In this document: positions 9,509-62,571 of the stretch, piece by piece
Layout of the letters: each line of letters begins with the position of its first letter
Numbering within the stretch: the stretch's first letter is position 1
Source of the DNA: Pseudomonadota bacterium
Lineage (GTDB): Bacteria > Pseudomonadota > Gammaproteobacteria > Burkholderiales > Methylophilaceae
DNA: 64,000 nucleotides
Assembly: GCA_029556915.1 (NCBI GenBank)
Contig: JAKQIT010000074.1
Location: 124,001 to 188,000 of the forward strand
Direction: 5' to 3'
Position numbers and translations under genes: made by a program
Notes under the pieces: generated by a model
Databases searched by the model: none
What the model was told of the DNA's origin: nothing
Seen by the model: only the letters and a program-made list of their open reading frames with translations

Positions 9509-9593
9509 GCAACAATTTAATTTAAGCTAAAATTGCGCTTAAAAATGCAAAATTAATTGCGTGTTTTTCAACTAAAATTTCACATCTTCATTT

Positions 9594-9656
9594 GACCCGC
9601 CCTGTAAGCCTTATTCTATGCGGCTTCCAGAGCATTAATTTTCGCTCGGGGGCTAT
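9594..9656 (+). repeat. Dispersed intergenic repeat, copy A
   Basis: Contains CCTGTAAGCC, then 11 bases, then GGCTTCCAGAGCAT and a trailing TTTTCGCTCGGGGG. The AAGCC/GGCTT arms form the core hairpin. It shares this order with copies at 15922, 24614, 30956, 36301 and 62526. Confidence 0.75.
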
Positions 9657-11043: not shown

Positions 11044-11973
11044 TTATTCTAAAAAATAACCTGCCAGCCAAATAGAACTGACGCCACAAGCAATCAGCAC
11101 CAATTGTGAAATCGTTGCGCGCAATTCAGTGCGTTTATGCAAGCTGGGAATTAAATCAGCCACCGCCACATACAGCATGCTGGCTGCGGCAATGCCTAAA
11201 ATGGTAGGAATCCAGCCTTGCACAAATTGCAACGCAAAATAAGCGATAACGCCGCCGACCACCGTTGCCAAGCTCGAAACTAAATTAAAAATAAATGCCT
11301 GTTTTTTGCTATAGCCAGAATGCAGCAAAATTAAAAAATCGCCCACTTCTTGTGGAATTTCATGCGCAATAATAGCAATCGCAGTCACAATACCGACTTT
11401 GACATCCACCATAAAGGCTGATGCGATTAAAATGCCATCCACAAAATTATGAAAAGTATCGCCTATCATCACCATCATGCCGCTACGCCCGTGATCATGT
11501 GAATGATTGTGTGAATGGCTCACTTTTACCGCCCGAGCATTTTTAGCACCGCTGGAAGCCTTATATTTACTGGCTTGCAGCGCATCGCCTTTGATGTTAG
11601 CTGATTTTTTAGGGTTTGCATCAGGACAATCAGCTTCAGAATGTAGCGCATGCACCTCGCAATGGTCGCCATGACAATGCCGCCAGATGACTAATTTTTC
11701 AAGCGTAAAAAACAGCAAAATGCCAAACAAAACGGTGCCCGTCATTTGCTGAGGGCTGCTAGCAATATGGATCGCTTCAGGTAAAATTTCTAAAAAAACT
11801 GCCCCTAACATTGCGCCAATTGCGTAGCTAATTAGCATCGGAATTGCCGTTGCGCGCGCACTGAGCGCCACTAAAGCAGCCCCTGCCACGCTTAACAAGC
11901 CGCCAATCAAGCTAAATAATATAATCCACGTGAGGGTAGAAAATTGCGCGGTGTAGGTTGAAAAACTTAACAT
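11044..11973 (-). CDS. ZIP-family metal (zinc) transporter
   Basis: 309 residues, about eight hydrophobic segments. Family metal-site motifs are present: FHNFVDG in TM4 and HEIPQEVGD in TM5. The cytoplasmic loop before TM4 is His-rich (VSHSHNHSHDHG) and preceded by HCHGDHCEVH. Within this loop, residues about 130-143 (DALQASKYKASSGA) are encoded by DNA that matches the dispersed repeat of this genome, so part of the loop may be repeat-derived. ZIP proteins move Zn or Fe into the cytoplasm. No TGCAACA-type operator is visible upstream. Confidence 0.9.
   Translation of the reverse strand: MLSFSTYTAQFSTLTWIILFSLIGGLLSVAGAALVALSARATAIPMLISYAIGAMLGAVFLEILPEAIHIASSPQQMTGTVLFGILLFFTLEKLVIWRHCHGDHCEVHALHSEADCPDANPKKSANIKGDALQASKYKASSGAKNARAVKVSHSHNHSHDHGRSGMMVMIGDTFHNFVDGILIASAFMVDVKVGIVTAIAIIAHEIPQEVGDFLILLHSGYSKKQAFIFNLVSSLATVVGGVIAYFALQFVQGWIPTILGIAAASMLYVAVADLIPSLHKRTELRATISQLVLIACGVSSIWLAGYFLE
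11552..11586 (-). repeat. Copy of the dispersed repeat inside the ZIP transporter gene
   Basis: On the coding strand GATGCGCTGCAAGCC, 11 bases, then GGCTTCCAG. This matches intergenic copy C (GATGCCCTGCAAGCC ... GGCTTCCAG) in 23 of the 24 bases of the two arms. It is read in frame as DALQA...ASS in the variable loop between TM3 and TM4. Confidence 0.65.
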
Positions 11974-15886: not shown

Positions 15887-15921
15887 AACTCCATTTTTAC
15901 GCTAATTTTTAATCAACATCA

Positions 15922-15982
15922 TTGATGATGCCCTGCAAGCCTTATTCCATGCGGATTCCAGAGGGGTGAAAATCTCTCGCAT
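15922..15982 (+). repeat. Dispersed intergenic repeat, copy B
   Basis: CCCTGCAAGCC, 11 bases, GGATTCCAGAG, then AAAATCTCTCG. It has the same order of blocks as the other copies, with one core mismatch (GGATTCC). Confidence 0.75.
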
Positions 15983-24560: not shown

Positions 24561-24613
24561 TTTTTTGATGATTAAAATTGATTAAATAATGTGTAAATTT
24601 GCTACGAGCAAAA

Positions 24614-24665
24614 AATGATGCCCTGCAAGCCGCATGCAGACTGGCTTCCAGAGCATCGCGATGGA
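24614..24665 (+). repeat. Dispersed intergenic repeat, copy C
   Basis: GATGCCCTGCAAGCC, 11 bases, GGCTTCCAGAGCATC. The outer GATGC/GCATC blocks add to the hairpin. It lies between ispG and hisS, within what should be one leftward transcript. Confidence 0.8.
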
Positions 24666-24695
24666 TAAGTGCGATTATGACTCAAATAAATCATA

Positions 24696-30931: not shown

Positions 30932-30955
30932 GCTAATAATCACCCGAGCAAAAAT

Positions 30956-31052
30956 CACTGCCCTGCAAGCCGCATGGATACTGGCTTTCGCATTCGACTT
31001 AGTGCTTTAGCACTTAGTGAGAATGGTGATGCCAAGTACTGGTACAGGGCAG
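30956..31052 (+). repeat. Dispersed repeat copy D in a 95-base hairpin
   Basis: CTGCCCTG (30958-30965) pairs with CAGGGCAG (31045-31052). Inside are the repeat core GCAAGCC...GGCTTTC and an inner hairpin AGTGCT-TT-AGCACT. It lies between the FadL-type gene and fhcB, and may end transcription of the former, though no T run follows. Confidence 0.7.
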
Positions 31053-31146
31053 CACAAATGAAGATGGTTCAAAATTGGTCTTAAAAATAAAAAATTTTAA
31101 ACAAAAAAAATGTAATAACAGTTAAATAATGCAACAATAAACTTTT

Positions 31147-32346
31147 ATGAATTCTGCCCAGCTCAATGTGCAATTTGTCACCTGCCCCGCTTGCGGTTTG
31201 CTGTGCGATGATGTGCAGGTTAAAAGTACAGATAATGCAATAAAAGTGCAAAAAAATGGCTGTGCAAAAAGTTTAGCTTTTTTTGAGCAGGTTACCCCCG
31301 AGTTACAACCGACAATTGCTGGAAAATCTGCTACTTTAAAAGAAGCGATTGCTGAAGTGGTACGTTTGCTCAAGCAAGCAAAAAATCCTTTATTAGACGG
31401 TTTAAGTACAGACATTACAGGTTTCCGTGCCCTATTTGGTTTAGCACAGAAAACCAATGCCGCATTACGGCATACTAACGCCACTAGTATCGCGCGCAAT
31501 ATGCGCGTACTGCAAAGCGCTGGTTGGCAAACCACCACACTCACTGAAGTAAAAAATCATGCCGATGTAATCGTCTGCTTTGGCAGCAATATTGTTGCGC
31601 ACAACCCACGTTTTTTTGGGCGATTTATTGATATGGACGGGATGTTTGTATCAGCCAAAAATCGGCAAGTAATTGTGCTTGGCAACACTCAAAAAACATC
31701 CAACATTAAAAGCGATGCGCTGGAAGCCCCATGGAATCTGCCTTGCAGGCCAGATGATTTACCCTCGGTGACAATTGCCTTACGCGCATTGGTGGCTGGT
31801 AAAGCGTTAAAAGCGAGTGAAATTGCTGGCATTCAAGTAACAGATTTACAAAAATTAGCGAACATTTTAAAAGCCGCAAAATACGCAGTTTTGGCTTGGG
31901 TGGCCAAAGATTTGGATTTTCCACATGCAGAACTCACCATACAAAATATTACCGAAACCGTTGCAACTTTAAACGAAACCACGCGGGCTGCTGGTTTAGC
32001 GCTAGGAGGTAGCGATGGTGACACCAGCGCCAACTATGCCAACGCATGGCTAAGCGGTTTTGTGCTGGACGAAAATATTCCTGACCACGATGCGGTCATT
32101 TGGGTGAATAGCTTTAGCGTAGATAAATTGCCTAACAACACACCTCACCCTTTGATTGCCTTAGGTGTAGCGCCGCCGTCCAACATAACACCGACTGTAT
32201 ATATTCCTATCGCCACACCCGCTCTTGATTGCGCTGGCATGTTATTTCGCGTGGATGGATCAGTGACCTTGCCGCTTAAAAAAATTCGCGAAAATCATTT
32301 GCCAACTTTAAGCGAGGTTATCAGCCAAATTGAGGCTTTGCTATGA
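31147..32346 (+). CDS. fhcB: Formyltransferase/hydrolase complex subunit B (formylmethanofuran dehydrogenase B-like)
   Basis: 399 residues. N-terminal FVTCPACGLLCDDVQV is typical of FhcB. Homologous to archaeal FmdB/FwdB; in bacteria the Fhc complex is a hydrolase that releases formate from formyl-methanofuran-like carriers and does not need the molybdopterin. Residues about 190-204 (DALEAPWNLPCRPDD) are encoded by DNA resembling the genome's dispersed repeat, in a probable surface linker. First of five coupled genes; fhcA overlaps by four bases. Confidence 0.92.
   Translation: MNSAQLNVQFVTCPACGLLCDDVQVKSTDNAIKVQKNGCAKSLAFFEQVTPELQPTIAGKSATLKEAIAEVVRLLKQAKNPLLDGLSTDITGFRALFGLAQKTNAALRHTNATSIARNMRVLQSAGWQTTTLTEVKNHADVIVCFGSNIVAHNPRFFGRFIDMDGMFVSAKNRQVIVLGNTQKTSNIKSDALEAPWNLPCRPDDLPSVTIALRALVAGKALKASEIAGIQVTDLQKLANILKAAKYAVLAWVAKDLDFPHAELTIQNITETVATLNETTRAAGLALGGSDGDTSANYANAWLSGFVLDENIPDHDAVIWVNSFSVDKLPNNTPHPLIALGVAPPSNITPTVYIPIATPALDCAGMLFRVDGSVTLPLKKIRENHLPTLSEVISQIEALL
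31714..31757 (+). repeat. Copy of the dispersed repeat inside fhcB
   Basis: GATGCGCTGGAAGCC, CCATGGAAT, then CCTTGCAGG. This is the reverse orientation of intergenic copies. Against the complement of copy B the 30-base core agrees at about 25 positions. It is read in frame as DALEAPWNLPCRPDD. Confidence 0.6.
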
Positions 32347-36271: not shown

Positions 36272-36300
36272 CCATTTTAATGTATTTTTCACACAACATC

Positions 36301-36372
36301 ATTTGACCACCCCGCTAAGCCAGTCTGGATGCGGCTTCCAGAGCATCAAAATTCTCTCGAGGGATTTTCAAG
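36301..36372 (+). repeat. Dispersed intergenic repeat, copy E
   Basis: ATTTGACCACCCCGCTAAGCC, then GCGGCTTCCAGAGCATC, then AAAATTCTCTCGAGGGATTTT-like arms that could form a terminator-type hairpin. It lies between convergent fhcC and epsA. The longest unit among the copies. Confidence 0.78.
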
Positions 36373-62525: not shown

Positions 62526-62571
62526 ACCACCCCGCCAAGCCAACAACCATGCGGCTCGCAGCCCTATGCCA
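62526..62571 (+). repeat. Dispersed intergenic repeat, copy F (diverged)
   Basis: CACCCCGCCAAGCCAACAAC, then CATGCGGCTCGCAGCCC. It keeps the CCCCGC.AAGCC and GCGGCT blocks of copy E but loses TTCCAG. It lies at the end of mtaD and before ubiG. Confidence 0.5.

Follow-up and report, generated by a model that had tools for sequence, protein, structure and literature searches.

The locus described here raises the question of whether a palindromic repeat dispersed between the genes of a Methylophilaceae genome also encodes a segment of a central C1 enzyme and, if so, whether it has lengthened that enzyme. A preliminary description of the window (i.e., the whole stretch of 64,000 nucleotides that was analysed) had proposed that a segment of fhcB is a copy of such a repeat, that this copy adds 15 residues to the protein, and that the genome carries a gene-tolerated palindrome comparable to the Rickettsia palindromic elements, which insert into genes in frame. 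The gene concerned is:

31147..32346, plus strand: fhcB, formyltransferase/hydrolase complex subunit B, 399 aa (NCBIfam TIGR03129, E 2.4e-72, with a score under the curated cut-off)

Other Fhc-type ORFs (named by eye) are located 3′ of fhcB. FhcB is classed, in the cited portion of a previous study, as a scaffold subunit without Mo/W-bisPGD (PMC10100899). An AlphaFold model of the protein, with a mean pLDDT of 58 (too poor for use), presented a coil at residues 180–195. The genome (G000; 3.28 Mb, 165 contigs, contamination estimate 5.65%) and that of the relative G134 carry the genus label g1, like many genomes with an FhcB only ~43% identical; in the FhcB tree, the protein clusters with genus g22 despite this label, a discrepancy for which the label, gene transfer, or the estimated contamination could be the cause.

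The repeat unit was derived from 51 intergenic copies found in a 464-kb sample (the window plus 400 kb, representing 14% of the genome). It is a REP-like unit of ~76 nt, consisting of a CCCGAG box, a hairpin, and a ATGATGTTG box; the consensus reads CCCGAGAGAATTTT, followed by hairpin arms of approximately ATGCCTCTGgAAGCC and GGCTTgCAGAGG enclosing loops such as GCATGGATACT, and then by a box like AAATGATGTTGTG. The core CTGNAAGCC-N11-GGCTTNCAG presented 404 sites genome-wide at ≤3 mismatches (6 for the reversed pattern), and the hairpin core presented 364 sites at ≤2 mismatches (0 for the reversed pattern). An HMM built from the 51 intergenic copies gave 159 matches in the sample (E ≤ 10, both strands of each palindrome being counted), as compared to two in the reversed sample, the better of which had an E of 6.9. 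Counted once per place at E < 0.001, these matches represent 67 loci, including 52 intergenic loci, 12 within ORFs, and three spanning ORF ends. Because the ORFs were picked by length alone, several of the 12 copies within ORFs that lie at ORF starts or ends may fall outside true genes; copies close to ORF starts, for which this may apply, are found at C14b 34262, C12 25962, C14b 1996, and C12 163739. The 51 intergenic copies with both neighbours presented 1 divergent, 24 convergent, and 26 tandem arrangements, while divergent spaces make up 31 of the 157 spaces of at least 80 nt in the sample. The family is thus a REP-like one with hundreds of dispersed copies, mainly intergenic and rare in divergent spaces; in the broad sense of the term REP, both a high-copy palindromic core (364 sites) and a mainly extragenic location (52/67 loci) were found. 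No Rfam 15 family matched within the window at gathering score. The copies outside genes, together with a weak one across an ORF start, are:

9578..9652, minus strand: REP-like unit, intergenic (nhmmer E 3.5e-18)
15908..15979, minus strand: REP-like unit, intergenic (nhmmer E 1e-16)
24605..24671, plus strand: REP-like unit, intergenic (nhmmer E 2.6e-13)
30941..31072, plus strand: long-loop form, intergenic and directly upstream of fhcB, with an extra nested palindrome that splits the unit (nhmmer 30941–30989, E 1.5e-12; right end 31043–31072, E 0.54; fold)
36287..36363, minus strand: REP-like unit, intergenic, downstream of the fhc gene cluster (nhmmer E 1.3e-16)
62530..62561, minus strand: weak partial copy across an ORF start (nhmmer E 0.081; core pattern with 3 mismatches)

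Long-loop forms of a similar plan were found at four places in the sample (window 30941–31072, C14b 90520, C12 162707, and C12 151273). In these forms the hairpin is split by a nested palindrome, e.g., CTTAGTGCTTTAGCACTTAG followed by GGTGATGCCAAG.

The copy inside fhcB is:

31699..31768, minus strand: diverged, nearly full-length REP-like unit in fhcB (nhmmer E 2e-4, model positions 5–73 of 78; synonymous recoding 1/20,000)

The three sequence parts that had been noted by eye are present, namely GATGCGCTGGAAGCC at 31714–31728, CCATGGAAT at 31729–31737, and CCTTGCAGG at 31741–31749, and they encode DALEAPWNLPCRPDD, residues 190–204. The hairpin core lies at 31720–31748, with arms CTGGAAGCC and GCCTTGCAG and a loop at 31729–31739; by hand count, the 29-nt core differs at only 4 of 29 positions from the intact genomic copy CTGGAAGCCGCATGGAATAAGGCTTGCAG. 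The repeat in fhcB is therefore real, but its extent had been understated, as the match covers ~70 nt (31699–31768) and reaches beyond the segment noted earlier. The unit HMM scored this copy at 19.9 bits (E = 2e-4 in the 464-kb sample), while the best E in the reversed sample was 6.9. When codons were resampled by genome usage, one of 20,000 synonymous recodings scored at least as high as the observed core, indicating that the match is in the DNA and not in the peptide alone; the fhcB genes of the relatives G101, G038, and G068 gave 0, 4, and 3 such recodings per 20,000, respectively. The fhcB segment is best explained as an ancient copy of the REP-like palindromic family that now codes for protein, most likely without a function of its own. 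Judged by its sequence, fhcB with this segment is an open reading frame encoding the orthologous protein.

The proposed addition of 15 residues did not hold. When FhcB was aligned with 59 homologs, nine being duplicates, no lineage-specific gap was found at residues 190–204, as homologs without the repeat fill these positions; five repeat-poor g22 relatives (L034 and L037 to L040) have exactly the same length at the site, and many other homologs are one residue longer. The exceptions are four homologs (L066, L067, L072, and L073) that are ~19 residues shorter at the site; two solved FwdB-type chains are 4 to 5 residues shorter, after their DPR stretch in the alignment. Among relatives rich in the repeat, G068 and G139 are ~4 residues and G101 is 1 residue shorter. 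G134, whose FhcB is the nearest on the tree, is ~19 residues longer and carries an extra in-frame nested palindrome in the loop, of a plan like that of the long-loop forms. Three further alleles (G126, G111, and G083) are half-native, combining a native left half (ISPxG) with a repeat-like right half. Equal length in the repeat-poor relatives therefore indicates that the repeat sits on native codons and adds none, and the fhcB case is a replacement in outcome rather than a lineage-specific insertion with a gap.

Tolerance of the palindrome in frame, which had been proposed for fhcB, extends to other genes. Besides fhcB, four genes carry an in-frame copy deep within their coding sequence, namely mutL, pabB, mpl, and a gene for a ZIP transporter; genes for a short-chain dehydrogenase and a DUF4139 protein carry weaker copies. 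The ZIP copy lies in the window:

11530..11602, plus strand: REP-like unit, in frame, in a ZIP transporter gene (ORF 11044–11973, minus strand; nhmmer E 7.1e-9, model positions 2–74; Pfam Zip PF02535)

None of 20,000 synonymous recodings scored as high for any of the ZIP, pabB, mutL, and mpl copies. The pabB copy lies between two Pfam domains (the first ending at 153, the second starting at 199), and the mutL copy lies in the linker preceding MutL_C (domains to 343 and from 448). Both pabB and ZIP have near-native length in alignments, which did not bear out a clean insertion in either gene. In mpl, the repeat-like DNA of this genome, G121, G101, and G038 comes with four additional residues net; the mpl of G134, 90% identical at the protein level to that of this genome, has the native GLRAKVGNAR, and in this genome GLRAK is retained with its codons moved towards the repeat. 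At C12 163739–163773 (L115), near the N-terminus of a 333-aa ORF without a family match, the repeat core encodes the hydrophobic ALAAAWILAC, which, provided that the start is correct, may be a repeat-derived signal peptide. Another palindrome (GTTCG...CTTCGACAAGCTC type) is found in frame in the ZIP gene of G106 (L129/L131) and in mutL of G106 (L196) and G137 (L188); in the G106 ZIP gene it represents a plain insertion with ~26 residues gained, unlike the REP-like family.

We compared these sites in a draw of 150 genomes, in which core sites were counted at ≤2 mismatches and 13 relatives with at least 15 core sites were designated REP-rich. As compared to 364 in this genome, core sites numbered 112 in G038, 89 in G139, 87 in G101, 50 in G121, 48 in G068, 47 in G111, 40 in G089, 35 in G106, 25 in G137, 22 in G126, 18 in G134, and 15 in each of G083 and G116; a repeat-poor set (G022, G050, G059, G095, G077, and G145) presented 0 to 3, and the remaining genomes 0 to 11. 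With nhmmer, the fhcB site was matched at E ≤ 0.04 in 6/13 REP-rich relatives (G038, G101, G121, G068, G089, and G134) and weakly (E 0.8 to 20) in 5/13 (G116, G111, G126, G139, and G083); no match was found in the fhcB of REP-rich G106 and G137 or of the repeat-poor relatives (0/6), and 30 other genes in this comparison gave two weak matches, located elsewhere in the gene. The pabB site was matched in 8/13 REP-rich (four with E ≥ 0.1) and 0/4 repeat-poor relatives, the mutL site in 6/10 (two weakly) and 0/3, and the ZIP site in 1/12 (weakly, G106) and 0/1. The preliminary description had held that the match would be chance if the same residues were present in distant FhcB proteins from repeat-free genomes, which was not observed; the pattern SDAL.A.W.LPC recurs in G038, G101, and G121, which carry 112, 87, and 50 core sites, while repeat-poor homologs have only single residues in common, e.g., the Cys of LPC.

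In a rank test that required a matching codon register (with a slack of four codons for ZIP and mpl and of two for the other genes), using a threshold of p ≤ 0.011 that was chosen after the values were known, REP-rich rows passed for fhcB (8/13), pabB (9/13), mutL (8/10), ZIP (3/12), and mpl (4/11), i.e., 32/59 in total, leaving 27/59 REP-rich gene rows without an occupied site; none of the 17 repeat-poor gene rows passed (0/6 for fhcB), nor did any of 34 other fhcB rows (three of them duplicates). Fisher's test for 32/59 versus 0/17 gave 3e-5, which is no true probability because the rows are related by descent; for the same reason, the contrast between REP-rich and repeat-poor relatives may rest on few events. 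The backbone of the tree is without resolution. At the fhcB site, the same codon register is occupied in most REP-rich relatives, with varied decay, and is free in the repeat-poor ones; pabB and mutL present the same pattern of a site shared among REP-rich relatives and found in no repeat-poor one.

We consider it likely that the fhcB segment was gained by ancestral entry of a repeat copy with loss of native codons, in-frame versions being kept. The site would have received a copy in the ancestry of the REP-rich lineages, once or repeatedly; the native codons that gave way to it may have been lost at once, by template switching or a conversion-like replacement, or afterwards, as an insertion was trimmed; and selection would have retained only in-frame versions compatible with the protein. 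We give one-step replacement and insertion followed by trimming about equal weight. Tolerance may be explained by position: the subunit that contains the fhcB segment is a scaffold and has no cofactor, and in pabB and mutL the copies fall within interdomain linkers. A 1988 review reportedly asks, in its title, whether REPs evolve by gene conversion. For the five genes, resemblance of the native site to the repeat was ordinary by longest run and identity in 50 repeat-free rows (median p from 0.28 to 0.85 per gene), with single rows below 0.05 for fhcB (L023 and L046), pabB (L180), and mpl (L220); since the native sites in these rows do not resemble the repeat, there is no support for a conversion seeded by homology already in place. 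It is conceivable, and we hold this only tentatively, that REP copies are written over existing coding sequence (e.g., by template switching at replication or by annealing of single-stranded repeat DNA), leaving gene length about unchanged and affecting several lineages at identical codon positions.

It is rather unlikely that the family is spread by the single REP-associated tyrosine transposase (RAYT) of the genome. This gene (L056:1408–1947; NF047646, E 2e-58) is the only Y1 transposase match in the genome, and its 3′ end is formed by a repeat copy that lies past the matched family profile, so that its last ~20 residues are repeat-derived; however, gene ends frequently carry copies in any case. 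Homologs were found in 2/6 repeat-poor and only 2/13 REP-rich relatives; the 11 without a homolog include G038, which is 99% complete and has 112 core sites, although several of the assemblies are incomplete. Repeat abundance and RAYT homologs are thus uncorrelated, and RAYT was rejected as the mover. Among the 51 intergenic copies, the tags GTAG, CTAC, CGTC, and GACG were found near the hairpin 0, 1, 3, and 2 times, respectively.

Classical in-frame insertion, in which a whole unit inserted in the style of the Rickettsia palindromic elements still lengthens FhcB, appears improbable. Full-length copies within genes, the ~19 additional residues in G134, the net gain of four residues in mpl, and the clear length insertion in the G106 ZIP gene would agree with it, but the last involves a different palindrome, the present length of FhcB, without extra residues relative to repeat-poor homologs, contradicts it, and the pabB and ZIP copies are also near native length. 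A drive like that of DNA uptake sequences, in which biased uptake builds up short motifs in genes, would account for resemblance in place at unchanged length, and lone genic arms at two mismatches did exceed the reversed control (7 vs. 1, 26 vs. 16, and 5 vs. 1; reversal being a rough control). However, the unit is ~76 nt long with two boxes, and 26 of 27 matches to GATGCNCTGNAAGCC at ≤1 mismatch lie in or near a palindrome, with 0 lone ones in genes; close lone arms are thus almost missing from genes, which suggests that the unit moves as a whole, and such a drive is very improbable. Equally remote is mere chance resemblance of native fhcB codons to the repeat, which the divergence of the match (19.9 bits) and the presence of LPC and DLP residues in repeat-poor homologs would allow, but against which stand the E of 2e-4 across the whole unit, the single recoding in 20,000, and the rank test (p ≤ 0.011 in 8/13 REP-rich vs. 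0/6 repeat-poor and 0/34 other rows).

Our preferred reading, ancestral entry with loss of native codons, differs from the closest known systems as far as the cited portions of the respective reports describe them. REPs of the GTAG/CGTC superfamilies are likewise short, high-copy palindromes found mainly between genes; some copies lie within genes, frequently those for repair (here mutL), and in one reported instance two Xanthomonas species have REPs at nearly the same recB position; the family described here is without tag and has a longer unit with two flanking boxes, and while those REPs are described as inserts interrupting genes, the coding copies found here bring no length gain and occupy sites common to many relatives (PMC3733652). 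Rickettsia palindromic elements are also found both between genes and within functional reading frames, but as in-frame inserts of 105–146 bp, as compared to ~76 nt in Methylophilaceae with an FhcB that is not longer (PMC2229807). The comparison with Rickettsia made in the preliminary description thus stands in part: the palindrome is tolerated in frame in several protein genes (fhcB, ZIP, mutL, pabB, and mpl), but residues were not added in FhcB, and the only gain relative to homologs is the net four residues in mpl. REPINs and RAYT-linked REPs share hairpin formation, dispersal, and a location mainly outside genes, but the family here is without tag and without RAYT correlation among the relatives searched (PMC3116915, PMC8266576). 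Coding palindromes of Nematomorpha mitochondria are similarly part of native coding sequence, with template switching discussed as a route, but are long perfect inverted repeats rather than copies of one dispersed family (PMC6649704). The RepRanger paper states, in its cited portion, that REPs seldom overlap coding regions (PMC12306157). A search by title of open-licence literature (on Methylotenera palindromic repeats and on intragenic, in-frame, or same-site REPs) found no paper on this REP-like family. Intragenic REPs and Rickettsia palindromic elements are thus already known; length-neutral, site-shared occupancy is new.

Outside Rickettsia, gene-tolerated palindromes are now also found in free-living methylotrophs, where they lie in conserved genes of C1 metabolism, DNA repair, folate, and the cell wall. 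If overwriting in place were true, a selfish repeat could, without any insertion, rewrite stretches of ~13 to 25 residues in housekeeping proteins. The shared sites in REP-rich and repeat-poor relatives represent a natural series (native, half, full, and long-loop), which makes it testable how a mobile repeat replaces protein sequence without lengthening it.
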